A stretch of DNA of 64,000 nucleotides from positions 2,829,501 through 2,893,500 of the forward strand of contig NZ_CP046400.1 of NCBI RefSeq assembly GCF_009762795.1, given 5' to 3'. Position numbers and translations under genes: made by a program. Within the stretch, counting starts at the first letter, position 1, and every line of letters starts with the position of its first letter. The DNA comes from Pseudodesulfovibrio cashew. Its GTDB lineage: Bacteria; Desulfobacterota; Desulfovibrionia; Desulfovibrionales; Desulfovibrionaceae. Positions 1,651-58,770 of this stretch are shown here, piece after piece. The notes below the pieces were generated by a model. The model searched no databases, had not been told where the DNA came from, and was given only the letters and a program-made list of their open reading frames with translations.

Positions 1651-2307
1651 TTAGGTTATGTTCGTGATGATGCCGTTTTCCAAGTGGATGGTCTTGTCGC
1701 TCACCTGGTCGAGCCAGGGCAGGTCATGGCTGGCGATGACCAGGCAGGTGCCGTTTTTGTCCCTGGCACGCAATGCTGCCTTGCGTGTCAGTTCGGCGGA
1801 TCTGATGTCGAGGCTGGCTGTGGGTTCATCCATGAGCAGGACGCTCGGCTTGAGCACCAGGCGGGCTGCCAGGGCCACACGCTGGGCTTCACCGCCGGAC
1901 AGTTCGAACCACTGCCGGGGAGAAAACGACTCAGGGTCCAGGCCGACCTCCACGAGGGCGTTGTGCACCTTGGTGGTGATGTCTGATTTTCTTCTCACCC
2001 GGAGTCCGTAGGCGACGTTGGCATGGACCGAGCGTTTGAGCAAAAAGGGTTCCTGAACCAGCAGAGTCACCTGGCGATGGACTGCGCCAGGGTGTGTGGA
2101 CGTGGGCGAACCCATGAAGGAGACCGTACCTTCCGTGGGAGCGTTGAGGAACGCCAAAATCTTGAGCAGGGTGGATTTGCCGGAGCCGTTGGGCCCGGCC
2201 AGGCCGATAATCTCGCCCTTGTTGATGTCGAGATGGTCGATTGAGAGGACGGTACGTCCGTTATAAATCTGCCGCACCTTTTCCAGGGAGATGAGCGGTT
2301 TATTCAT
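1651..2307 (-). CDS. tupC: Tungstate ABC transporter ATP-binding protein
   Basis: The product has 218 residues when started at the ATG at 2307, which overlaps the permease stop codon in an ATGA arrangement. A longer reading frame upstream would run inside the permease and is not used. Motifs are in order: Walker A GPNGSGKST, Q-loop LLVQEPFLLK, signature LSGGEAQRVALAARL, Walker B LLMDEPTASLD and H-loop ASHDLPW. It is the energising subunit of the tupABC importer, acting on the inner face of the membrane. Confidence 0.88.
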   Translation of the reverse strand: MNKPLISLEKVRQIYNGRTVLSIDHLDINKGEIIGLAGPNGSGKSTLLKILAFLNAPTEGTVSFMGSPTSTHPGAVHRQVTLLVQEPFLLKRSVHANVAYGLRVRRKSDITTKVHNALVEVGLDPESFSPRQWFELSGGEAQRVALAARLVLKPSVLLMDEPTASLDIRSAELTRKAALRARDKNGTCLVIASHDLPWLDQVSDKTIHLENGIITNIT

Positions 2308-2999
2308 TTGACCGCCTTTTTCTTCAACCCAGTGGCGGCAACGTTGACCACCAGGGCGACTGTAAGCAGGACCATGCCAAGGGCGATGCCCACGGCGAAC
2401 TCTCCCTTGCCGGTCTCCAGGGCGATGGCAGTAGTGATGGTGCGCGTGTGCCACTTGATGTTGCCACCCACAAGCATGGAAATACCAACCTCGGAAACGA
2501 TGCGCCCGTAAGCGGCCATGGCCGCAAGCATGATGGAAAATCGCGCTTCCATGACCGTAGCCCAGAGGATCTGTTTGGGGCTGGCCCCCAGAGTGATGAG
2601 GGTCATGGGCAGCCGTTTGTCCAAACCATCCACTGCATTGGCAGTCATGGCGACGATGATCGGCAGGCCGAGCAGGGTTTGGCCTATGGCTATGCCGGCC
2701 AGGGAAAAGAGGAGCCCTGTGCCGCCTAAGGGGCCGTGGCGGGTCAGGAAGGCGTAGACAAGCAGACCGATGACCACTGTGGGAAAGGATAGCAGAGTGT
2801 CCACGCCGGTGCGGACGATCTTTTTACCGGGGAAGGAATAGTGGCCGAGGCAAAAGCCGAGGGGGACGCCTATGGCGAGGCTGCAGAACATGGAGAGAGA
2901 GGATGCTCCCACCGTTGCCCAGATAGCCGAATAGGTCTCCGGGTCTCCACTGAACAGGAGCACGAAGCCTTGAAGAAAACCTTGAAGCAGATAATCCAT
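2304..2999 (-). CDS. tupB: Tungstate ABC transporter permease
   Basis: This 231-residue integral membrane protein has about five hydrophobic segments and the ABC permease EAA-like loop (EARFSIMLAAMAAYGRIVSE). It lies between the ATPase and the binding protein of a tungstate-type importer. Length and order (A, B, C) fit TupABC. A strong hairpin in the 60 bp gap before it may reduce its expression relative to the binding protein. Confidence 0.85.
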   Translation of the reverse strand: MDYLLQGFLQGFVLLFSGDPETYSAIWATVGASSLSMFCSLAIGVPLGFCLGHYSFPGKKIVRTGVDTLLSFPTVVIGLLVYAFLTRHGPLGGTGLLFSLAGIAIGQTLLGLPIIVAMTANAVDGLDKRLPMTLITLGASPKQILWATVMEARFSIMLAAMAAYGRIVSEVGISMLVGGNIKWHTRTITTAIALETGKGEFAVGIALGMVLLTVALVVNVAATGLKKKAVK

Positions 3000-3059: not shown

Positions 3060-3884
3060 TTATTTTGCGTTGGGAATAAAAAGCTTCTGTCCGAGAAGCT
3101 TGAATTCGCCGATGGCCTTCTGGGTGGCCGGGGAAGCCATCCAGTCGATGAACTGGGTGGCCATCTCGTACTGGGCGTCCTTGCAGTGCTTGGTGTTCAC
3201 GGCCAGGCCGGAGTACTGGTTGAACAGCACCTTGTCGCCTTCCACCAGAACCTTCAGCGGGGGATTGCCCTCGTGGTTGTGGGAGTACTTGATGTAGGTG
3301 CCGCGGTCGGTCATGGTGTAACCGGACTTCTCGTTGGCGACGTTGATGGTCGGGAGCATTCCCTGGCCGGTCTGGATGTACCATTCCTGCTTTTCGGGGA
3401 CCGCCATGCCGGCGGACTTCCACAGGGAGATTTCCTTTTTGTTGGTGCCGGAGTTGTCGCCGCGGCTGGCGAAGACGGCCTTCTTGGCCTCGATGGTCTT
3501 CAGGGCGTCGGTGACGGACATGCCTTTGACGCCGGCGGGGTCGGAAGCGGGACCGATGATGACGAAGTCATTATACATCAGCTCCTTGCGGTCCACGAGG
3601 ACGCCTTTGTCCATGTATACTTTCTCGGCGCCGGGAGCGTGCACGAGCACGACGTCCACGTCGCAGTTTTCAGCCATTTTCAGGGCCTTGCCGGTTCCCA
3701 CTGCCACGAATTTGATCTCGATGCCCGTATCCTTAAGGAAGAGCGGTACGATCAGTTCGTCCAGCAGACCGGTGTTGGCGGTCGATGTGGTGGTGGCCAT
3801 CATCAGCGTCTTGTTTGCCATGGCGGGCAGCGCGAGCGCGAGCGTCAGCATGGCAGCAAGCACGATGGTCATGATGCGTTTCAT
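3060..3884 (-). CDS. tupA: Tungstate-binding periplasmic protein
   Basis: The 274-residue protein starts with a Sec signal peptide (about residues 1-23, ending in LPAMA) and then the TTTSTANTGLLD motif, which is the anion-binding TTTS element of TupA proteins. Further family segments are GTGKALKMAENCDVDVVLVHAP and the FNDFV-like YNDFVIIGP. It captures tungstate in the periplasm and passes it to TupBC. The start at 3884 has a purine-rich ribosome site (GAGGGAAC) about 9 nt upstream. It is the first transporter gene after the TunR-like regulator. Confidence 0.92.
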   Translation of the reverse strand: MKRIMTIVLAAMLTLALALPAMANKTLMMATTTSTANTGLLDELIVPLFLKDTGIEIKFVAVGTGKALKMAENCDVDVVLVHAPGAEKVYMDKGVLVDRKELMYNDFVIIGPASDPAGVKGMSVTDALKTIEAKKAVFASRGDNSGTNKKEISLWKSAGMAVPEKQEWYIQTGQGMLPTINVANEKSGYTMTDRGTYIKYSHNHEGNPPLKVLVEGDKVLFNQYSGLAVNTKHCKDAQYEMATQFIDWMASPATQKAIGEFKLLGQKLFIPNAK

Positions 3885-3969: not shown

Positions 3970-4356
3970 CTATTCCTTGTCGTCGCGGTAGAATTCTCCC
4001 GATTTTCCTACCTGCATCTCCAAGATGTCGGATGCCTTTTCGATAGCGTAGTTTTCCACGTCAAGATAGAATTCAAGAAATTTTTCCATCAGTTCCTTGC
4101 CAAAAGGAGACAGGTTGAAACGCTGGCCCTGTCCTTTTGTCTTTTCCACCAACGGTTGTCCGATGCGCTCTTCAGCACTTTTCAGCTTGCCCCAGGCACG
4201 GCGATAGGACATGCCCAGAGCTTCCGCCGCCTTGCGGAGGGAGCCGAGTTTCTCGATGTGCTGGAGCAGCAAGGTCGAGCCTATTCCGATGTAAAGATCG
4301 TTTTCCTGTTCGATCCAGACTCGCAGACGTAAGGTTGCTTGATCAGATTTTGCCAT
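3970..4356 (-). CDS. tunR: Stand-alone ModE-type winged-helix regulator, TunR-like
   Basis: The 128-residue protein consists only of the LysR/ModE-type DNA-binding half. The helix-turn-helix is around residues 38-58 (GSLRKAAEALGMSYRRAWGKL, with flanking sequence). No molybdate-binding Mop domains follow. Stand-alone ModE-type proteins named TunR are known as tungstate-responsive regulators in sulfate reducers, and this one lies directly upstream of tupABC on the same strand. The start at 4356 has no clear Shine-Dalgarno sequence, so it may be weakly translated. A candidate operator is at 4428-4449. How it senses the ligand without a Mop domain is not visible. Confidence 0.8.
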   Translation of the reverse strand: MAKSDQATLRLRVWIEQENDLYIGIGSTLLLQHIEKLGSLRKAAEALGMSYRRAWGKLKSAEERIGQPLVEKTKGQGQRFNLSPFGKELMEKFLEFYLDVENYAIEKASDILEMQVGKSGEFYRDDKE

Positions 4357-4420: not shown

Positions 4421-4449
4421 AAGCTTGATTAAGTCAAGCTTGGCATAAT
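4421..4449. promoter_or_regulatory. Candidate Mo/W operator upstream of tunR, with an overlapping inverted repeat
   Basis: ATTAAG (4428-4433), a 10-nt spacer and CATAAT (4444-4449) match the palindrome ATTATG-N10-CATAAT at 11 of 12 arm positions. A second perfect inverted repeat, AAGCTTGA-N5-TCAAGCTT (4421-4428 and 4434-4441), overlaps it. The site lies 72 bp upstream of tunR, after the end of the ThiF-like gene. Function is inferred from recurrence of the motif at 7484, 7738 and 8935. Confidence 0.55.
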
Positions 4450-4477
4450 AGTATGTTTCAATCATAAGCCCCTGAAT

Positions 4478-5311
4478 TTAAAGCAAAATACGGTCAAAGG
4501 AAAGTGTTTTTAGATCTGCGATTAGCATGGCTGAGGTGAGTTCGGACTGGCCTGTCGTCAGCAGTTTGACTGCCTCGGCAGCCATAAGAGCAGCGAAAAA
4601 AGTGACCGCCGGAGCAGGGCATCCAAGTTTTTCCTCCGCGCCGTTGTCGGTCCCCATGATGTCTGCCGGACCTTCATGTCCGGGCATGACCACTGCCACA
4701 TAACCGGTCCAGCCCGCCAGGGCGCCGGTGACCAGAGGGATGCCTGCGTCTGCGGCGGCCTGCTGGAGCGCTGGGCGCGTCTTCAGTCCGCCGAGGGCGT
4801 CCACGGCCAGGTCGGCCCCGTCCAGAAAGTCGGGGAGGGTCCGGGCGTCGAGGAATTCGTTTTTCGCCTCAAAGGATACCGACGGGTTGAGTTGTTCTGC
4901 CCGTTCGGCGGCCACCTCGGCTTTGGGTCTATCCAGCGCTGCCGGAGAACTCAGAGCCTGCCGGTTCAGGTTGGTAGCCTCGAACGTGTCACCGTCCGCA
5001 CCTCGAATGGTTCCAATGCCCGTGCGCAGGAAGACCTCCAGCAGGGTTCCTCCCAGGCCACCCAGGCCTACCTGGGCAATGGTCGATTCAAGCAGCTTTG
5101 CTTGGTGTTGTATGTCAATGATCAGTTGGTTTCTAAGATATCGGGCAGGATGAATGCCCAGAGACAGGGCTTTTGCTTCGACCACATGCCCTTTTACGCC
5201 ATGCTCGTTTCCGATGGCCATGACCGCAGAAAGACCTAGGACCTGTCCATGTCCTCCGGACGGCAGGTCCTGGTCTACTGCATGCGTTCGAATGGAGTCG
5301 GCCAGCGGCAC
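4478..5311 (-). CDS. ThiF/MoeB/HesA-family adenylyltransferase
   Basis: The 277-residue protein has the E1-like nucleotide-binding loop VGLGGLGGTLLEVFLRTGIG (about residues 80-99), then DGDTFEATNLNRQ and the PKAEVAA segment of enzymes that adenylate the C-terminal glycine of MoaD/ThiS proteins. It starts with GTG at 5311, 1 bp after the MoaD-like gene, so the two form an activating enzyme/carrier pair. An N-terminal extension of about 75 residues precedes the Rossmann part. Only one cysteine is seen in the C-terminal region (GCPAPA), so the paired CXXC zinc site of MoeB is absent. The pair probably serves pterin-cofactor sulfur transfer for the adjacent AOR. Confidence 0.8.
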   Translation of the reverse strand: MPLADSIRTHAVDQDLPSGGHGQVLGLSAVMAIGNEHGVKGHVVEAKALSLGIHPARYLRNQLIIDIQHQAKLLESTIAQVGLGGLGGTLLEVFLRTGIGTIRGADGDTFEATNLNRQALSSPAALDRPKAEVAAERAEQLNPSVSFEAKNEFLDARTLPDFLDGADLAVDALGGLKTRPALQQAAADAGIPLVTGALAGWTGYVAVVMPGHEGPADIMGTDNGAEEKLGCPAPAVTFFAALMAAEAVKLLTTGQSELTSAMLIADLKTLSFDRILL

Positions 5312-5312
5312 G

Positions 5313-5540
5313 CTAGCCTCCGCCTACGGCAGGGAAAAGCCCGACGCGATCCTTGTCCTTGATCTCGGTGTCCAGCTCCACCTTGAGGGAATTGACGAAC
5401 ATGATCGCCACATCCTTTTCGGGGATACCGACCTTGACCATGAGCGACCTGATGGTCTCTCCTTCCTCAATGGGATAATCCGCACTGTTTTCAGGCAGGA
5501 GAGGGGCCAGAGTCGCAAAGAGTTTTAATTCAATACCCAT
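5313..5540 (-). CDS. MoaD/ThiS-family sulfur carrier
   Basis: The 75-residue beta-grasp protein has the classic features: an N-terminal strand (IELKLFATL), the ETIRSLM helix, the segment AIMFVNS, then DRVGLFPAVGGG with the C-terminal glycines that are adenylated and thiocarboxylated. It is followed by the ThiF-like activating enzyme and lies downstream of the AOR gene, so the likely job is sulfur donation in molybdopterin or tungstopterin synthesis. A canonical MoaD for the general pathway might be elsewhere in the genome. Confidence 0.88.
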   Translation of the reverse strand: MGIELKLFATLAPLLPENSADYPIEEGETIRSLMVKVGIPEKDVAIMFVNSLKVELDTEIKDKDRVGLFPAVGGG

Positions 5541-5583
5541 GTGTTTCCTCTAGCAATTTTACAATACTCGGTCAACGATTCCC

Positions 5584-5613
5584 AAAAAAAAGGCCGGAGA
5601 AAATCTCCGGCCT
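5584..5613 (-). terminator. Rho-independent terminator after the AOR gene
   Basis: On the minus strand a 10-bp G+C-rich stem (5604-5613 with 5591-5600) and AAA/TTT loop is followed by a run of seven T (5590-5584). It lies between the AOR stop codon (5639) and the MoaD-like gene (5540), so moaD-thiF are either expressed by read-through or from their own promoter. Confidence 0.85.
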
Positions 5614-5638
5614 CAAATCATGCTTGGTGGGCTCTGGA

Positions 5639-7366
5639 TTAAACCTTGGCGCCCTGGAGTTCGTCTTCGTCGATGTCCCAAACCACGTTGTGGGGCGGCA
5701 GGGGATCGGTTTCGAAGAAGCGGGGCAGCTTGTCATCCAGCTTGGTGAAGCCGGCCTTGGCGTTGAAGTCCAGTTCGTCCTGCAGGGCACCAACGCCGAG
5801 GTTGACCAGGTCGTCCGCGGTGAAGGTGTTGCCGGTGTAAGCCTGGACCAGGTCGGCCATGGCCTGCACGCCGTTTTCGCTGTCGAGGACGGCGAAGGCG
5901 ACGAAGAGGCAGAAGCCCATGGAGTCGATGGCGGCGGTGGCAACCTGAAGGTTCTTGGAGAGCTCGACGTTGCCGTCCTTGACGTGACCGTCGATGGAGC
6001 CGCCGACGCCCAGGACGTTCTGGCAGACGCCGTAACCGGCGGTGTGGTCAGCGCCCATGGGGGTGGTGGCGTAGGTGACGCCGACGCCCTTGACCGCACG
6101 CGGGTCGTAGGCGGGCATGGACTGGTTCTTAACAACGGGGAGGCGTTCCACGCCGAATGCGCCGCCAGCGAAGGTGACGCCGTTACCGATGATCATACCC
6201 ATGGGATCGTCGGAGCCGACTTTCTTGAGCAGCTCAATGGCGGCCTTGCCGTCACCCCAGGGGATGATGCCGCCGTCCATGGCGATGGCGATGGTGTTAC
6301 CGATTTCGATGGTATCCATGCCCTTTTCGTCGCAGATACGGTCCATGGTGGCGATGTCGTCAATGTCCTTGATCAGGGCGTTGGCGCCGAAGGCCCACAC
6401 GGTTTCGTACTCGAAGCCGGAGGTGAGGTACTCACCGTTGGCATCGTTGTACTGCTGGGAGCACTGGATGACGCAACCGGTGTGACAACCTTCAGTGGGC
6501 TTGCCGCTGCGGGACTTGATGACTTCCTCGATCTTTTCACCGGAGATGTCGGCGGCGTGATCGACCTGGCCGTAGCGGAAGTTCTTGGTCGGCATGGCGC
6601 CGGCTTCGTTGATGATGTTAACCAGGATGGAGGTACCGAATCCAGGCAGGCCTTCAGCGGTGACCGGGTGGCCGCGCAGGATGTCGACCCAGGTCTTGCG
6701 AGCGGTCTTGAAGGCTTCTGCGTCAGCGGCTTCGACCTTGTTGTTGACGGCGGGGTCAAGGATGATGGCCTTGATCTTCTTGGAGCCCATGACGGCACCA
6801 ACGCCGCCGCGACCGGCGGAGCGAGCGGGGCGCTTGTAGGGATCGGTGAACTGGATGGTGGCAGTCTTGCGGACGGTCTCACCAGCGGGTCCGATCATAC
6901 CGCAGACGAGCTTGTCGCCGTATTCGGCCAGCAGCTTCTCGTGAGCGGGGTAGTTGTCCATGCCGACGATGTCGGAGGCGTCCTTGAATTCCACGGTGCC
7001 ATCGGAAATGACGATGTTGGAGAAAGACGCGCCTTCTTCGGGCTTGTCTTCAAGGATGATGGCCAGCAGGCCCATCTTGGGCATCTTGTGAGCGAACATA
7101 CCACCGGAGTTGGACTCCTTGATACCTTCGGTCAACGGAGATTTCGTTCCCACGGAAAGACGGCCGGAGTTGGCAGCGGTGGAGCCGCCCAGCAGGCCGG
7201 TAGCGAAAACGAGTTTGTTCTCGGCCGAAAGCGGATGGCAGTTGGCCGGGACTTCTTTGTTGATGACGCGCGATGTCAGAGCTCGGCCGCCAAGATTGGC
7301 GTAGGGACCGACCTCTTCAAAAGCGTACTCCTTAGTACGGGTGTTGATTCGGAGAATCTTAGGCAT
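5639..7366 (-). CDS. aor: Tungsten-containing aldehyde:ferredoxin oxidoreductase
   Basis: The 575-residue product belongs to the AOR family, which oxidises aldehydes to acids with ferredoxin as acceptor using a tungsten bis-pterin and a [4Fe-4S] cluster. Visible elements are the N-terminal domain with GGRALTSR and SGRLSVGTKSP, RPARSAGRGGVGAVMGSK, the cysteine group CHTGCVIQC (about residue 295) and a fourth Cys candidate in YGVCQNVLG. Length is slightly below the roughly 600 residues of archaeal AOR. It sits between the MoaD/ThiF pair and a divergent candidate regulon gene, close to the tungstate importer. A long upstream region (7367-7804) holds a candidate operator. Confidence 0.93.
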   Translation of the reverse strand: MPKILRINTRTKEYAFEEVGPYANLGGRALTSRVINKEVPANCHPLSAENKLVFATGLLGGSTAANSGRLSVGTKSPLTEGIKESNSGGMFAHKMPKMGLLAIILEDKPEEGASFSNIVISDGTVEFKDASDIVGMDNYPAHEKLLAEYGDKLVCGMIGPAGETVRKTATIQFTDPYKRPARSAGRGGVGAVMGSKKIKAIILDPAVNNKVEAADAEAFKTARKTWVDILRGHPVTAEGLPGFGTSILVNIINEAGAMPTKNFRYGQVDHAADISGEKIEEVIKSRSGKPTEGCHTGCVIQCSQQYNDANGEYLTSGFEYETVWAFGANALIKDIDDIATMDRICDEKGMDTIEIGNTIAIAMDGGIIPWGDGKAAIELLKKVGSDDPMGMIIGNGVTFAGGAFGVERLPVVKNQSMPAYDPRAVKGVGVTYATTPMGADHTAGYGVCQNVLGVGGSIDGHVKDGNVELSKNLQVATAAIDSMGFCLFVAFAVLDSENGVQAMADLVQAYTGNTFTADDLVNLGVGALQDELDFNAKAGFTKLDDKLPRFFETDPLPPHNVVWDIDEDELQGAKV

Positions 7367-7483
7367 TTTGCACCTCTTGCAGTTGAAAGATTCCGGTGCT
7401 TAGGACGGGGGTGTCTTTGTAAGCACTTAAAAAACAATTCACCTCTACACCCTTTTGAAAAAAAATGTCAATAAAAACAAACG

Positions 7484-7505
7484 ATTATGCTCAGTCGGAC
7501 ATAAT
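7484..7505. promoter_or_regulatory. Candidate Mo/W operator upstream of aor
   Basis: Exact palindrome ATTATG-N10-CATAAT (arms 7484-7489 and 7500-7505), 118 bp upstream of the AOR start codon and just upstream of a possible -35 hexamer. That placement would suit an activator. Assignment to the TunR-like protein is inference. Confidence 0.6.
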
Positions 7506-7558
7506 GAAAACGGTTCTTGGGTACTCTGAATAATATGTATGGGATTAAAAGTACTGTG

Positions 7559-7592
7559 ATTTTACCATACTAAATACCCATCTCGGTAAAAT
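7559..7592. repeat. Inverted repeat ATTTTACC-N18-GGTAAAAT
   Basis: Perfect 8-bp arms (7559-7566, 7585-7592) in the centre of the divergent aor/7805 region. The distance between arm centres is 26 bp. It may bind a second regulator; no other copy was noticed. Confidence 0.4.
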
Positions 7593-7737
7593 ACCATGAA
7601 GAGCAAAAAAATGTGATTGTGAGAAAAAAATGATGACCAACATAAAAAATGATCAAGTTTTTTATCTTTGAATTATTGATATGCAATGACTTTGCGATTA
7701 GAGTCCTGCAAATAAATATTTTCAAAGAAAACAATTG

Positions 7738-7759
7738 ATTATGCCTTTGTGAGCATAAT
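7738..7759. promoter_or_regulatory. Candidate Mo/W operator upstream of the gene at 7805
   Basis: Exact palindrome ATTATG-N10-CATAAT with the arms extended by one C/G pair to 7 bp (7738-7744 and 7753-7759). It lies 45 bp upstream of the start codon at 7805, so it may overlap the promoter. The 11 bp AATTGATTATG at its left side also occur at 8930-8940, upstream of the FecCD-type importer. Confidence 0.6.
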
Positions 7760-7804
7760 AAATGTGATTTTAAGTTTGGAAATTACAAGGGCAAGGAGCC
7801 GAAA

Positions 7805-8371
7805 ATGAATAATCTCAAACGGCTGGCGATCCGGATGGATGAAGCCTCGCGAAGCAACTGGAATTTCATACTTCAAAAGGGATTCTTTGTTCATGGGCAG
7901 GAGGGCATGACCGTCAGGGAGTTTCTCTTCTCCCGGTTCGGGTATGATTCGGACTTCATCGATAATTCCGTAAGAACCATATTTCTTAACAGAAGTCCGG
8001 TCGACGGCATCGACAAGGTGTACGTCAAGGACGGTGACAGGCTGGCTCTTGGCGGAGCCATGCCCGGCCTGGTGGGCATTGTCATGGGACGAGACAATCC
8101 GTTCAAGAGTTTCAGAAAGGATATTGCCAGCAAGGACGGTACCGCGGATGAAGCCAAGGGCGTTTCGATCCGGGTGTTCGCCAAGGTGTTCAGCACGCTG
8201 GCGGTTGAGTCGGGTGAGGAGATTCTGAGCCGCGGCATCGAGATCCCGGGCGCTTACCTGCAGAGTGTCCTGGAGGATCATGCGGCAGTTTACCAGGATG
8301 GAGGCGGAGCTGTAGAAATGCCCGGGGATAAGGAGATGGTGATGGTCACCGTGGAGTTTGGCAGTCTTTGA
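7805..8371 (+). CDS. Unrecognised protein with a possible MoaD-like beta-grasp segment
   Basis: The 188-residue protein has a good ribosome site (AAGGAG, 8 nt before ATG). I do not recognise a named family. Residues about 35-95 read like a ubiquitin-like MoaD/ThiS fold: VREFL, then RTIFLNRSPVDG and VYVKDGDRLALGGAMPGLVG, which resembles the strand-GD-x-glycine end of MoaD, but here the glycines are internal and a further 95 residues follow. No signal peptide or membrane segment is seen. It is divergent from aor and has its own copy of the candidate Mo/W operator. A role in Mo/W cofactor metabolism is inference only. Confidence 0.6.
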   Translation: MNNLKRLAIRMDEASRSNWNFILQKGFFVHGQEGMTVREFLFSRFGYDSDFIDNSVRTIFLNRSPVDGIDKVYVKDGDRLALGGAMPGLVGIVMGRDNPFKSFRKDIASKDGTADEAKGVSIRVFAKVFSTLAVESGEEILSRGIEIPGAYLQSVLEDHAAVYQDGGGAVEMPGDKEMVMVTVEFGSL

Positions 8372-8430
8372 TAGCCTCCCGACGCTGCCGGTAAATCGGC
8401 TTCGACCTGTCTTTTCAGATTTGGTCTTTC

Positions 8431-8465
8431 AAAGGAGAGCTCCCCGGCGAGGGAAGCTCTCCTTT
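8431..8465. terminator. Bidirectional terminator between convergent genes
   Basis: 11-bp arms (8431-8441 and 8455-8465) with further pairing of CCC/GGG inside; T runs flank both sides (TTTGCTTTT on plus, AAA tail giving T on minus). It separates the convergent genes ending at 8371 and 8470. Confidence 0.8.
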
Positions 8466-8469
8466 GCTT

Positions 8470-8811
8470 TTACTGATTGGGGCAACCCAAGGTTTTGGCG
8501 TATCCTTCCAGCTCCTTGAGCTGGCGTCGGTATTGGGTCTCGTAGAAGTAGCTTGACTCCAGAGGAATCTGGGTCCGGTTGTCATAAATCCCGTACCCCA
8601 TCTTCTTGCATGCGGAGGCACGTTCCGTCTCCGGCATTCCCTGGAGAGATTCGCCATAGTCTTTGACGGCCTTTCTGTAAGCCTTCTTGGCGATCCTGTA
8701 GCTGGAGTCAGCCTGTCCTCGAAGTCCCCTGGCGATGTCCATGGCGCTTGCGGGGGAGGTTAAGGCAAAAAGACAAAACATGAGTAGGGCGGATGTGAGT
8801 ATTTTTCGCAT
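8470..8811 (-). CDS. Small exported hypothetical protein
   Basis: The 113-residue product begins with a clear Sec signal peptide (about residues 1-23, SPASA before the cut). The mature part is about 90 residues, rich in charged residues and tyrosine, with two cysteines (CKK and a C-terminal GCPNQ) that could form a disulfide. The start has AAAAGGAG upstream. No family is recognised and no partner gene adjoins, since it is bounded by a terminator and a long gap. Confidence 0.65.
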   Translation of the reverse strand: MRKILTSALLMFCLFALTSPASAMDIARGLRGQADSSYRIAKKAYRKAVKDYGESLQGMPETERASACKKMGYGIYDNRTQIPLESSYFYETQYRRQLKELEGYAKTLGCPNQ

Positions 8812-9173
8812 GATGTTACTCCTTTTATTTGTCGTATAGCACGATCCTGGCGTTGTTGAATATCAATAACCATCGCTCATTTTCATGCAAGTGTCATCGC
8901 AGCGTTAAATGAGGTTGTTCCGGCTATTTAATTGATTATGTCTAAAAAGGCTCAATGCACTGTCACGGAACCATTAGTTTTCGTGATAGTTGGTCTTTTT
9001 CTTGCCACAATTTATTCCGACAGAGTAGAGATTACCCTTATCGTCTGAAGCCGCCCGACCTAAAGGTCGGGAGACATCGGGGCATATCAGCCGCACTTTG
9101 ATCGGTTCAGGGGTGTATGGCGGGTCGCCCGTGCCCTGTCGCCCAACATCATTATATCAAGGAGATTCGTTCC
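8812..9173 (+). promoter_or_regulatory. Promoter and structured leader region of the FecCD-type importer
   Basis: No gene is supported in these 362 bp. It holds a degenerate copy of the Mo/W palindrome (ATTATG-N10-CTCAAT, 8935-8956), an inverted repeat TCACG/CGTGA (8963-8967, 8982-8986) followed by a T-rich stretch, a tight hairpin CCCGACC-TAAA-GGTCGGG (9054-9071), and a compound stem (9108-9138: CAGGG with CCCTG, GGCG with CGCC inside) just before the ribosome site. It has no B12 box, so a cobalamin riboswitch is not supported. Confidence 0.5.
8935..8956. promoter_or_regulatory. Degenerate candidate Mo/W operator upstream of the importer
   Basis: ATTATG (8935-8940), 10-nt spacer, CTCAAT (8951-8956): 10 of 12 arm positions match ATTATG/CATAAT. 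The left side shares 11 identical bases, AATTGATTATG, with the exact site at 7738. It is 217 bp upstream of the first transporter gene. Confidence 0.4.
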
Positions 9174-10217
9174 GTGAAATTATCTTGCAAACAGTTTGCG
9201 ATTGCCTGGTTGCTGACCTTGCTGCTGGCCGTGCCCGCGCACGCCGCCCGTACCGTCACCGACCAATTGGGCAGGACCGTATCCGTTCCGGACAGCGTCA
9301 GCCGGGTAGTTGTCTTGCAACACCAGGCCCTGGACATCATGATCCAGCTTGGTGCCCAGGGCACGGTAGTGGGCGTACTCGAGAAGTGGGACAAGTATCT
9401 GCCCGGAGCAGCCAAGTGCATGAGCGACATCAAGGCGATGCCTACTCCCGGCGGCCTGAGTTCAGTGAACATGGAAGCACTCCTCGCCCTAAATCCCGAT
9501 CTGGTCATCGTCACGCACTATGCCCCCAAGGATATGATCGATCAGATCAGCGCGGCGGGAATCCCCACAGTTGCCATTTCCCTTTTCGACGCCGCCTATG
9601 CAGAAGCTTCCAAGCTGAATCCCGATCTGAAGGATGCGCAGGAAGCCTACAACAAGGGGCTGAAGGACGCGGTGCTGCTGCTGGGCGACATCTTCGAAAA
9701 ACAGGAGCGGGCGGCCAAATTGATGCAGACGGTGGAGCAGAGCCGTTCCATCCTCAAGTCCCACCTCGGCAATATTCCAGAAGGCGAGCGGGTGCGGTGC
9801 TACATGGCCAGGTCCAACCTGCACACCTATGGGCGTGGCAAGTACACCAGCGTAATCATGGAGCGCGCCGGAGGCGTCAACGTGGCCGCCAAGGAAGTGG
9901 TCGGATTCAAGGAAGTGACCATGGAGGACGTGCTGCGCTGGAATCCCGAGGTCATCTTCGTGCAATGGCGGCACCGCAAGGCCGCCGATCAACTGATCGC
10001 AGACCCTGCCTGGCAGCAGGTGGATGCCGTCAAGAACGGGCAAGTTCACGTTTGCCCCGAGTACGTCAAGCCGTGGGGGCACGCTCTGCCTGAGTCCATG
10101 GCCCTGGGCGAACTCTGGATGGCCAAGACGCTTTACCCCGAGAAGTTCAAGGATGTCGACCTCGACGCCATGGTGCAATCCTACTACAAGGAATTCTATG
10201 GCATTCCCTTCGAGTAG
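9174..10217 (+). CDS. Periplasmic binding protein of a FecCD-type ABC importer
   Basis: The protein has 347 residues from the GTG at 9174, which follows AAGGAG and starts a Sec signal peptide (ending VPAHAA). An earlier in-frame ATG (9117) has no ribosome site and would mask the signal. The mature protein is a BtuF/FepB-fold receptor: RTVTDQLGRTVSVPDSVSRVVVL, then NMEALLALNPDLVIV and the C-terminal WQQVDAVKNGQVHVCP. Members carry cobalamin, iron chelates or, in MolA, molybdate. The downstream ModA-like gene and the shared upstream motif point to molybdate or tungstate. Confidence 0.85.
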   Translation: MKLSCKQFAIAWLLTLLLAVPAHAARTVTDQLGRTVSVPDSVSRVVVLQHQALDIMIQLGAQGTVVGVLEKWDKYLPGAAKCMSDIKAMPTPGGLSSVNMEALLALNPDLVIVTHYAPKDMIDQISAAGIPTVAISLFDAAYAEASKLNPDLKDAQEAYNKGLKDAVLLLGDIFEKQERAAKLMQTVEQSRSILKSHLGNIPEGERVRCYMARSNLHTYGRGKYTSVIMERAGGVNVAAKEVVGFKEVTMEDVLRWNPEVIFVQWRHRKAADQLIADPAWQQVDAVKNGQVHVCPEYVKPWGHALPESMALGELWMAKTLYPEKFKDVDLDAMVQSYYKEFYGIPFE

Positions 10218-11235
10218 GCCGGTATCGGATCGCCCGCCCATACGCTCTCTGTGGCTATGGGCGGGCGTGGTCGCAGTGTTCTGCCTCGGCCTGGTTTGGG
10301 GACGCTATCCGGTCCATGTGGCCGATGTGTGGCGTATCCTGGCCCATGCGGCCGGATTGCCGGTTGATGACGGCCTCCCCGGAGTGTTGAAGGCCGTGGT
10401 TCTGCAGGTACGCCTGCCGCGCGTGCTGGCGGCCATGCTCATCGGCGGAGGACTGTCCGTGTCTGGCGCGGCCTTTCAGGGCTTGTTCCGCAATCCCCTC
10501 GTGTCGCCGTATGTTCTCGGCGTCGCCTCGGGTGCGGGTTTTGGCGCGGCCCTCGGCATACTGCTTTGGGAAAGCGCGCTGCTCATCCAGGTTTCCGCCT
10601 TCGCCTTCGGCATGGTCGCCGTGGGCACGGCGTGGGTGATGAGCCGTCTCTACAGGACCTCCGGCACCATGATCATCATTCTTGCCGGGGTGGTTACGGG
10701 CGCGTTCTTTCAGTCCCTGCTTTCCCTGGTCAAATACATGGCGGACCCGGACGACAAGCTGCCCGTCATCGTCTATTGGCTGATGGGCTCCCTGGCCTCG
10801 GTGAGCATGGACGACCTGCTGGCCGTGCTTCCCGCCATGGGGATCTGTTTGCTGGGATTGTTTCTGGTGCGCTGGAAACTCAACGTCCTGACCCTGGGGG
10901 ATGAAGAGGCCCGCGCTCTTGGCGTTGAGGCCGGACGGCTGCGTTTCGGCGTGGTCGTGGCTGTGACGGTGCTGACCGCCTGCGCAGTCTCCATCAGCGG
11001 AATCATCGGCTGGGTGGGCCTCGTCGTGCCGCATCTGGCGAGGATGGTGGTGGGCCCGGACTACCGCCGACTTATACCCGCTTCCCTGGCCCTCGGCGCA
11101 TGCTACCTGGTGATTATCGACGGCCTGGCCCGCAACCTGACTGCCACGGAGATACCGCTTGGCATTCTTACCGCCACGGTGGGCGCTCCGTTCTTCGCCG
11201 TGCTTCTGGGCAGGGGGAGGACCGGATGGGCCTGA
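10198..11235 (+). CDS. FecCD-family ABC importer permease
   Basis: The product has 345 residues with about nine to ten membrane segments. Family motifs are RLPRVLAAMLIGGGLSVSGAAFQGLFRNPL-like (residues about 68-97), SPYVLGVASGAGFGAALGI and the cytoplasmic-loop region GLVVPHLARM. The ATG at 10198 overlaps the preceding gene by 20 bp; upstream in-frame starts would lie deeper inside the binding-protein gene. It forms a homodimeric channel with the ATPase encoded next. Confidence 0.87.
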   Translation: MAFPSSRPVSDRPPIRSLWLWAGVVAVFCLGLVWGRYPVHVADVWRILAHAAGLPVDDGLPGVLKAVVLQVRLPRVLAAMLIGGGLSVSGAAFQGLFRNPLVSPYVLGVASGAGFGAALGILLWESALLIQVSAFAFGMVAVGTAWVMSRLYRTSGTMIIILAGVVTGAFFQSLLSLVKYMADPDDKLPVIVYWLMGSLASVSMDDLLAVLPAMGICLLGLFLVRWKLNVLTLGDEEARALGVEAGRLRFGVVVAVTVLTACAVSISGIIGWVGLVVPHLARMVVGPDYRRLIPASLALGACYLVIIDGLARNLTATEIPLGILTATVGAPFFAVLLGRGRTGWA

Positions 11236-12011
11236 TCCTGCGCATCGAAGAGCTCGGTTTCGCCTATGACGGCAAGCCGCCGGTCTGGACGGACGTGAAC
11301 TTGTCCGCTCACTCCGGCGAGGTTCTCTCCATTCTCGGTCCCAACGGAACGGGCAAGTCGACCCTGCTTCGCTGCGCTGCGGGGCTGGAGACGCCTGGAA
11401 ACGGCAGGGTGTTCGCCGGAGAAACGGAGGTGTCGGCCCTGAGCAGGCGCGAGGCGGCCCGACGTATCGCCTTTGTGCCGCAGATGCATACGCCGATATT
11501 CTCCTTTAGCGCGCTCGACGTCGTGGTTATGGGGCGAACAGCCCATCTGGGCGCTTTTTCCTCTCCGTCCGGCAGGGATTTCCGCGTGGCGAGGGAGGCG
11601 TTGGAAACCATGGGCGCGGCCCATTTGGCGGATGTTTCCTATGACGAGACCAGCGGGGGCGAGCGGCAGCTCATTCTTTTTGCCCGGGCTCTGGCCCAGG
11701 AGGCGGATATTCTGCTTCTGGACGAGCCCACCTCGCATCTGGATTTCGGCAACCAGGCGCGTACCCTCGCGCTCATTCGTTCCCTTGCCGACCGGGGACT
11801 GACCGTGGTTATGACCACCCATTTCCCGGACCACGCCTTTGGCATATCAGAGCGGACCTGCCTGTTGGCCGGGGGACGGGTGCGTGGCAGCGGCCTGACG
11901 CGTGAGATTCTGACCCCGGAAGCGTTGACAGACTTGTATGGTCTCGGCGTGGACATCCATAACCTGGAAGGGGAGCGAATCGTCTGCACCGCAAAGGGGG
12001 AGGCCGTATGA
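11226..12011 (+). CDS. ABC importer ATP-binding protein (FecE/BtuD type)
   Basis: The product has 261 residues from the ATG at 11226, overlapping the permease end by 10 bp. Walker A GPNGTGKST, Q-loop FVPQMHTPIF, signature TSGGERQLILFARAL, Walker B LLLDEPTSHLDFG and H-loop MTTHFPDHAF are all intact. FecE/BtuD-type length and motifs match the preceding FecCD permease. It overlaps the ModA-like gene by 4 bp, so the four genes form one operon. Confidence 0.88.
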   Translation: MGLILRIEELGFAYDGKPPVWTDVNLSAHSGEVLSILGPNGTGKSTLLRCAAGLETPGNGRVFAGETEVSALSRREAARRIAFVPQMHTPIFSFSALDVVVMGRTAHLGAFSSPSGRDFRVAREALETMGAAHLADVSYDETSGGERQLILFARALAQEADILLLDEPTSHLDFGNQARTLALIRSLADRGLTVVMTTHFPDHAFGISERTCLLAGGRVRGSGLTREILTPEALTDLYGLGVDIHNLEGERIVCTAKGEAV

Positions 12012-12727
12012 GTCTGACCGTGTTTTCCGCGGGCAGTCTGCGCAAGGCATTGCCCGCCATGGCCGAGGCCGTCGGGCTCGATCTGGATGTCCTTTTTGGT
12101 CCGGCCGGGCTGCTGCGCCGTCGGATCGAGGAAGGAGAGCGTCCTTCTCTGTTCTTCTCCGCAAATATGGATCACGCACGAGCCGTCGAGACCCTGGACG
12201 ACTATGCGCCAGCACGGGAGCTTGCTGTGAATCGGCTATGCCTGTTCGGGCGGCGCGAGGCGTTGGAGTGCGGCGATGCGCTGGCCGCCATGCTGGCGCA
12301 GGAAAACCGGCTGGGCACCTCTACGCCCGGTGCCGATCCCGGTGGAGATTACGCTTTTTCGGTTTTCGACCGGGCCGAGGCGATCCTGCCGGGCAGCCGG
12401 GAACGCCTCCGGGCAAAGGCGTTGCCCCTGGTGGGCGGCAGCCTGCACGGCAAAGACGGCCCAGGTCGCTCTCCGGTGCCCGGACTATTCGAGGCGGGCA
12501 AGGTTGATCTATTCTTGGGGTACCGTACTTCGGCCTTGGATGTGGTTCGCTCCGTTGAAGGGTTGGCCATGGTGGAGTTGCCTCCGGCTCTGGCTGTGGA
12601 GGCGATTTATGGCGTGGTTGCGCTTCGGGGTGATCCCGTTGTCGCCAAGGCGCTGGCCCTGCTTGATTCCCTGCCTGCGACCGAGGCTCTGGAGCAGTGC
12701 GGCTTTATGCGCTGTGACGGGGCTTGA
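12008..12727 (+). CDS. ModA-like molybdate/tungstate-binding protein without signal peptide
   Basis: The 239-residue protein starts MSLTVFSAGSLRKALP, which aligns with the first strand and anion-binding serines of mature ModA/WtpA (VFxAxSL). It continues with FGPAGLLRRRIEEG and LFFSANMDHA, equivalent to the SGxLxxQIExG and FxSAxxxxM segments of ModA. No signal peptide or lipobox precedes, so it is expected in the cytoplasm. It overlaps the ATPase gene by 4 bp (ATGA). A cytoplasmic ModA-like protein could buffer or deliver oxyanion, or sense it; that role is inference. An upstream in-frame signal is excluded by the overlap arrangement. Confidence 0.75.
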   Translation: MSLTVFSAGSLRKALPAMAEAVGLDLDVLFGPAGLLRRRIEEGERPSLFFSANMDHARAVETLDDYAPARELAVNRLCLFGRREALECGDALAAMLAQENRLGTSTPGADPGGDYAFSVFDRAEAILPGSRERLRAKALPLVGGSLHGKDGPGRSPVPGLFEAGKVDLFLGYRTSALDVVRSVEGLAMVELPPALAVEAIYGVVALRGDPVVAKALALLDSLPATEALEQCGFMRCDGA

Positions 12728-58063: not shown

Positions 58064-58651
58064 TTATTGGATGGGGGTTACGACAAGGATGTTGCCGCTT
58101 ACTTCCGTCACCCGTATCCGGGTGCCGGTACGGATTTCGCTGTTGTCGGCCGATGCGGCGTCGTATTCACGCAGCCTGCCGAGAAAGGTAACCATGACGC
58201 TGCCGGTTTTGTTCGGATGGATGGTGGTATAGACCTTACCTTCACTGCCCACGGCCTGGCTGATGTTGATGGTCCCGCTGTGCTGCATGGAAGCCATCAG
58301 TTTGAAGAGCCTGCCGATGACCCAGAATGAGGCGAGCCCTGCGGCTGCGGCACCGAGAAGAGAGAGGGCTGCGCCCACCTCGCTTTGTCTGTAGAGCGCA
58401 TACCCCACCAGGCCGAACATCATGAAAAAAGAGGAAAGACCGTGCAGGGAGAGGAATTTCAGGCTTGCGTCCGTGTCGAATGCGTCGCCGCCGTCCGGGG
58501 ACTCGAAGTCGGCATGCATCGCCGCTTCATCGCCGAAATCCGCACCAAGAAACTGCAGGGCGAATCTGGCAAGCAGGGGGATGCACCCGGCCAGGGCGCA
58601 AATGAGGTAGAATATGTCCAAGCCATTGAGGTTGTTAAACCATGCGCCCAT
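58064..58651 (-). CDS. NfeD-like membrane protein, partner of flotillin
   Basis: The product has 195 residues from the ATG at 58651 (AAGGAG 7 nt upstream). Membrane segments lie at about 12-35, 67-88 and 90-110; the C-terminal part (about 120-195) is an OB-fold typical of NfeD, with SGTINISQAVGSEGKVYTTI and RVTEVSGNILVV. NfeD and flotillin genes are nearly always adjacent, as here. Confidence 0.8.
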   Translation of the reverse strand: MGAWFNNLNGLDIFYLICALAGCIPLLARFALQFLGADFGDEAAMHADFESPDGGDAFDTDASLKFLSLHGLSSFFMMFGLVGYALYRQSEVGAALSLLGAAAAGLASFWVIGRLFKLMASMQHSGTINISQAVGSEGKVYTTIHPNKTGSVMVTFLGRLREYDAASADNSEIRTGTRIRVTEVSGNILVVTPIQ

Positions 58652-58770
58652 TATCAAACTCCTTACATAAATTAAGGAATCTTTACAGGCTTGAGAGCAT
58701 CAGTGCAACCCTGCAGATAGATTTTCTGTGTTGGGTGCAATGCCTTGATTGCTTTTGGCAAGAGGGGGCT

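Follow-up and report, generated by a model that had tools for sequence, protein, structure and literature searches.

The 64,000-nucleotide stretch of the Pseudodesulfovibrio cashew genome analysed here (contig NZ_CP046400.1, forward-strand positions 2,829,501 to 2,893,500; the window, in what follows, is this whole stretch) encodes a stand-alone regulator of the ModE type, genes for tungstate uptake and a tungsten-type aldehyde:ferredoxin oxidoreductase (aor). A palindrome, ATTATG-N10-CATAAT, recurs in front of these genes, and a preliminary description of the window had reported four copies, had proposed that they mark a molybdenum/tungsten (Mo/W) regulon and had offered the ModE-type protein as the binder. 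All four copies lie where they were reported, two of them exact. The features on which the argument turns are as follows, with lengths in nucleotides (nt), base pairs (bp) or amino acids (aa).

4428..4449, no strand assigned: operator before modE-tupABC, one mismatch; includes the -35 box TTGACT (4437-4432, minus strand)
7484..7505, no strand assigned: aor operator, exact copy, its centre at about -57 from the start predicted here
7738..7759, no strand assigned: operator before the gene at 7805, exact copy
8935..8956, no strand assigned: candidate site, two mismatches (14/16), between the divergent genes 8470-8811 (minus) and 9174 (plus)
7466..7471, minus strand: -35 element (TTGACA) of the promoter predicted for aor; lies 12 nt downstream of the 7484 site
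3970..4356, minus strand: stand-alone ModE-type winged-helix regulator (128 aa, no Mop domain), the proposed binder
3060..3884, minus strand: tupA-like gene for a tungstate-binding protein (NF041772, E 4.1e-104, 347.7 bits, under the 400-bit cut-off)
2304..2999, minus strand: tupB-like permease gene, named from open reading frame, position and sequence
1651..2307, minus strand: tupC-like ATPase gene, named from open reading frame and position, with a start chosen by us
5639..7366, minus strand: aor, tungsten-type aldehyde:ferredoxin oxidoreductase (PF01314, E 1.6e-73; PF02730, E 1.1e-60)
7805..8371, plus strand: gene for an unnamed protein conserved beside aor, of no known family, with matches in 33 of 41 genomes

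It is clear that the palindrome is real, that chance is excluded and that it marks a conserved Mo/W regulon. The window contains five matches with at most two mismatches, whereas 100 dinucleotide shuffles average 0.63 and never yield as many as five; the fifth match, at 58650-58671, looks like chance. The whole genome holds 52 sites at this stringency and 10 with at most one mismatch, where a reversed control pattern gives 15 and 0, respectively. At the stricter setting the sites in 25 Pseudodesulfovibrio genomes total 218, against 27 for the control; in 16 genomes from other families the totals are 93 and 59. When the best upstream sites from eight gene groups are combined (116 distinct sites, selected at a score of at least 13/16), the word is refined to ATTATGYY-N6-RRCATAAT, 22 letters long. 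The 10-nt spacer of the preliminary description is not made of ten free bases: positions 7-8 are mainly pyrimidines and positions 15-16 purines, and because these positions are constrained the word is better written as 8+6+8. G6 and C17 are invariant across the 116 sites, every one of which had been preselected at this score, and base frequencies in the set are biased towards the pattern by that selection. Independent evidence for the word is given by the counts of its conservation before orthologous genes.

For these counts a site had to score at least 13/16 within 400 bp upstream of the gene (900 bp for fdhA), the window's own genome was included in each set, and loci under a per-gene identity cut, as well as L207, which offers no upstream DNA, were dropped beforehand (here and below, L and G numbers are our handles for loci and genomes). 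In the set for the gene at 7805 the loci under the cut were the non-genus ones and L085, which does have a one-mismatch site. Within the genus a site precedes 23 of 24 modE genes, 22 of 23 orthologues of the 7805 gene, 21 of 23 aor genes and all of the MoeA-like (22/22) and fdhE (21/21) genes; it is found as well at five of six second-tupA loci and at five of eight loci of Cys-type fdhA. Upstream regions shuffled by dinucleotide, 20 times per locus, reach the same score in 0 to 1.1% of trials. The divergent aor and 7805 genes, which have an operator each in the window, mostly have a single site between them in relatives.

The same gene set emerges from the window's own genome, where 50 of the 52 sites were listed and only a minority of those with two mismatches were annotated. 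Among the sites listed, all six that score 15-16 of 16 precede Mo/W genes: two lie at a MoeA-like gene (PF00994, E 4.6e-24), which is followed by the gene of a molybdopterin (Mop-type) aldehyde oxidoreductase (NF045668, 1709 bits), two at aor and the 7805 gene, one at modE-tupA and one at fdhE (TIGR01562, E 4.7e-23, below cut-off), near which stand FdhD- and MobB-like genes named by sequence alone. At one mismatch or none there are ten sites: eight precede Mo/W genes, one lies by flagellar-like genes and one upstream of an ArsR-like gene. Seven sites score 14, of which one precedes fdhA (TIGR01553, 1447 bits) and one is the 8935 site; weaker ones are found upstream of modB and of the genes for a second TupA-like protein and for another aldehyde oxidoreductase of the family named above. 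Near-sites by flagellar-, response-regulator/chemotaxis-, hydrogenase- and ArsR-like genes and by SulP, names which except for SulP come from reading the sequence alone, may be, and in part probably are, due to chance. The regulon claimed by the preliminary description is thus borne out by conserved sites before Mo/W genes in relatives, and the expected genome-wide occurrence of the motif before such genes holds in good part, for aor, modE-tupA, the second tupA, fdhE, fdhA and the MoeA-like gene; the sites before modB and the second aldehyde oxidoreductase are weaker. The operator-bearing fdhA (L018:6351-9398) is the form without an in-frame TGA, and two TGA-containing paralogues are present in the same genome.

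The likely binder of the palindrome, judged from its domain and its surroundings, is the Mop-less ModE winged-helix protein encoded at 3970-4356, and the choice made in the preliminary description still appears to be the best one. By profile the protein matches the ModE winged helix (PDB 2ijl, E 1.3e-10; Escherichia coli ModE, E 1.8e-6), and its AlphaFold2 model, with a mean predicted local distance difference test score (pLDDT) of 87.7, has a secondary structure consistent with a winged helix that ends in a long helix. Domain-family searches found neither a TOBE/Mop match nor an Xer-type domain in it. Orthologues at least 65% identical occur in 24 of the 25 Pseudodesulfovibrio genomes, the genus in which the word is enriched; most close orthologues retain the tail EFYRDD, and the modE gene, with the tupA-like gene 85 bp behind it on the same strand, has its own conserved operator. 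In Halodesulfovibrio (L165) the gene of a ModE domain 40-42% identical to that of the window adjoins modABC and is transcribed divergently from a MoeA-like gene (66% identity to the one in the window's genome) and a Mo aldehyde oxidoreductase. The space between the divergent genes holds a 14/16 site, at a distance of 100 bp to modE and 67 bp to the start of the MoeA-like gene; L166 carries a 15/16 site before its modE. Three Desulfomicrobium-type stretches with a ModE protein 48-50% identical (L161, G036, G040) carry a 15-16/16 site before a transposase-like gene, which in G036 and G040 precedes fdhA; no site was found in L160 (4 kb) and L162 (18 kb). A second ModE domain, about 40% identical, occurs in 21 of the 25 genus genomes (e.g. 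G012:C1:3615888-3616211) and adjoins an fdhA in the genomes compared by coordinates (e.g. G012, G022, G011, G018, G002); it was not found in the window's genome. A piece like GTGTCAAAC stands directly before many modE operators.

The position of the operator relative to predicted promoters differs between its two best-defined targets. TTGAC occupies operator positions 13-17 in 21 of 24 modE loci and forms the predicted -35 box of modE-tupABC; in 15 of 23 loci the single best predicted promoter places its -35 element there. Where aor has a site (21 loci), a -35-like hexamer begins exactly 12 nt after the operator, TTGACA in 18 loci and TTGACT in three. The 18 loci with TTGACA have a -10-like hexamer a further 16 or 18 bp on, so that the operator is centred at about -57 to -59. 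One plausible scheme is that a ModE dimer binds the palindrome and represses its own modE-tupABC promoter, which would fit because the operator covers the -35 box, and that it activates aor, which would fit because the operator centre lies in a class I position, with Mo or W as the signal. Such a layout suggests repression of uptake and activation of the tungstoenzyme. On this comparative evidence we consider it probable that the stand-alone, Mop-less ModE has ATTATGYY-N6-RRCATAAT as its operator and that the word thereby delimits a Mo/W regulon. That regulon would comprise tungstate uptake (modE-tupABC and the second tupA), the tungsten aldehyde oxidoreductase and its 7805 neighbour, and further a formate dehydrogenase, fdhE together with the genes next to it, and the MoeA-like protein along with the Mo aldehyde oxidoreductase encoded behind it.

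Several observations weigh against this reading. The promoters were predicted by consensus matching, and for the 7805, MoeA-like and fdhE genes no shared promoter geometry was found, their arrangements being inconsistent. Against TIGR00637 the regulator scores 46.7 bits (E 2.5e-12), under the cut-off of 98.5, and other families, in which the word is only slightly enriched, also have ModE-type proteins of 33-50% identity. Three of the eight Cys-type fdhA loci lack a site, and in the window's genome the other five sites scoring 14 lie near ArsR-like, SulP and response-regulator/chemotaxis-like genes and others without a Mo/W link that could be seen. In G014, whose assembly is 81% complete, a 14/16 site precedes the MoeA-like gene, yet only a ModE paralogue with 37% identity was found. 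The importer gene at 9174, which the preliminary description had counted in the regulon, has a site in neither of its two close orthologues (from a search of 30 relatives, including 18 from the genus), so that the 8935 site stands alone and its membership is not upheld; lying between divergent genes, 8470-8811 (minus) and 9174 (plus), it could be assigned to either.

The integrase-Mop regulators of sulfate reducers, reportedly treated by Kazakov in 2013, are said to have later received the name TunR, and like the system of the window they belong to Mo/W regulation in this group. The preliminary description applied that name to the gene at 3970-4356, which would make the palindrome a TunR operator. 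The genome does contain a TunR-type gene (Phage_integrase plus two TOBE domains; L024:6714-7775), and a weak copy of the word, with two mismatches, precedes the adjacent modB; but before this modB stands a different box, GTCACG-N14-CGTGAC (L024:8295), and Desulfovibrio mod clusters with a chimeric phage-integrase/Mop gene are accompanied, according to PMC545781, by the motif CGGTCACG-N14-CGTGACCG, from which the palindrome differs. Moreover G012, a genome rated 100% complete in which a search for PF03459 alone gave no TOBE match at the threshold used, has both the ModE protein and the palindromes. TunR differs from the window's system in its integrase-type DNA-binding domain with Mop, in its box and in being encoded elsewhere, at about 87.7 kb on the single contig on which the window begins at 2,829.5 kb. 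The 3970-4356 product, a ModE winged helix with neither an Xer-type nor a Mop domain, was accordingly rejected as TunR, and a TunR operator is the least credible of the identities weighed here.

In Desulfovibrio vulgaris aor and tungstate uptake are linked to TaoR, a regulator with HTH_17 and PBP_like domains, under which aor is activated and tupABC is repressed. That the palindrome is the TaoR site is highly improbable, although this regulator shares with ModE a position before tupA and the overlapping targets aor and tup. PMC11980592 presents TaoR, a protein with HTH and PBP-like parts, as regulating the tungsten aldehyde oxidoreductase, and PMC10102598 names tupR (DVU3193) as a regulator of tungstate uptake; both cite Rajeev 2019. 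In genomes of another family (G028, G033 and G037) TaoR-type genes stand directly before tupA-like genes. TaoR/TupR is nevertheless an unrelated protein, with no clear candidate found in Pseudodesulfovibrio. In the window's genome the sole strong PF12727 match lies in a 660-aa frame, the size of a MoeA fusion, and no TaoR candidate was found among strong PF12727 matches (weak ones of about 300 aa were not examined singly, nor was HTH_17 searched alone). Strong PBP_like matches elsewhere in the genus likewise lie in frames of about 650 aa or more, of MoeA-fusion size, except in G014, where the match is XRE-like by sequence, and G009, where it is split and behind a MoeA-type match. The palindrome is also absent at the 7805 orthologues of the TaoR-bearing G033 and G037 (L088, L091), and its binder is probably not TaoR. 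A further alternative, in which the word is recognised by some other Mo/W regulator that counts the ModE-type gene among its targets, draws on the retention of the site in G014 without a close ModE orthologue and is unlikely: the operator lies on the ModE regulator's own promoter, the Halodesulfovibrio arrangement speaks for ModE as well, the word is enriched in the genus that has the close orthologue, and its dyad core, TAT-N12-ATA, is shared with the published E. coli ModE consensus (the Mo-box, ATCGNTATATA-N6-TATATANCGAT). XRE-type HTH plus PBP_like proteins at L304:1577-2695 (G014, by sequence) and L308:1516-2634 (G040, by Pfam) are possibly further Mo/W regulators.

The Mop-less ModE regulon with its own operator word is, as far as the sequences allow such a comparison, a variant of the known ModE kind. 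With the ModE/Mo-box systems of E. coli and Geobacter sulfurreducens it shares the ModE-family winged helix, the palindrome core and a regulon of Mo/W uptake, cofactor and enzyme genes; it differs in that the protein lacks Mop domains and in ATTATGYY as against ATCGNTATATA. An E. coli-type Mo-box was rejected as the signal itself, the best candidates in the window and eight loci agreeing at 11-13 of 20 positions and matching only in the core, as was a known RNA element, scans at Rfam gathering scores having returned two tRNAs in the window and nothing in six loci of its genome. No prior report of the palindrome was found in the open-licence literature, a scope outside which RegPrecise, Kazakov 2013 and Rajeev 2019 fall. 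Stand-alone ModE domains of the same layout as the 3970-4356 product are treated for Desulfovibrio and D. psychrophila in Rodionov 2004 (PMC545781), a paper that found no E. coli-type sites for them and calls their sensing mechanism unclear; for another genus, a site and a gene set are now proposed. In the genus loci examined the ModE-HTH fills the slot before tupA, which makes a swap of regulators, ModE for TaoR, the simplest reading; from gene order, ModE-HTH seems to stand where other families have another tungsten regulator. The question of metal sensing arises because this regulator lacks the oxyanion-binding Mop domains. We can suggest only tentatively, and with rather less than even confidence, that in this genus a Mop-less ModE replaced TaoR before tupABC, acquired aor and additional Mo/W genes as targets, and reacts to W or Mo in the absence of any Mop/TOBE domain, whether directly, via the conserved EFYRDD-like tail or with the help of a partner, for example the transporter or cofactor machinery.

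Other features of the window and of the regulon loci complete the picture. The neighbouring genes named by domain matches are:

4478..5311, minus strand: ThiF/MoeB-like adenylyltransferase (PF00899, E 2e-42)
5313..5540, minus strand: MoaD/ThiS-like sulfur carrier (PF02597, E 3.7e-9)
9174..10217, plus strand: Peripla_BP_2 binding protein of a FecBCD-type importer (PF01497, E 7.5e-30)

Behind the FecBCD-type importer genes comes one for a ModA-like protein (NF002918, E 8.9e-53, under the cut-off), the whole spanning 9174-12727, and we take them by analogy to form a possible class II molybdate/tungstate importer. The protein encoded at 7805-8371 gave no match in Pfam, NCBIfam or PDB searches, and its AlphaFold2 model has a mean pLDDT of 73. 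Behind fdhE lies a protein with IS1595-type transposase domains (PF12762, PF12760; L017:6793-7737, G000:C1:1453792-1454736), which is found in the same place in the 20 other genus fdhE loci examined (68-89% identical; in two pieces in L232) and has 42-47% identical relatives before fdhA in G032, G036 and G040; it is apparently a domesticated transposase that belongs to formate dehydrogenase operons. The fdhE upstream regions (L212-L232) share a conserved stretch of the form GTGYCARACC...AAGTGCCAAACC...TTTGGCA, about 60-80 bp behind the fdhE operator.

These data offer a concrete and testable answer to a question raised in 2004 (PMC545781), namely which sites and genes are the targets of stand-alone ModE domains in sulfate reducers, and the word allows tungsten and molybdenum genes to be predicted, including that of the unnamed protein beside aor. 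They pose the puzzle of how a ModE without its metal-binding half detects tungsten, and they suggest that two unrelated regulators may fill the same tungsten slot.

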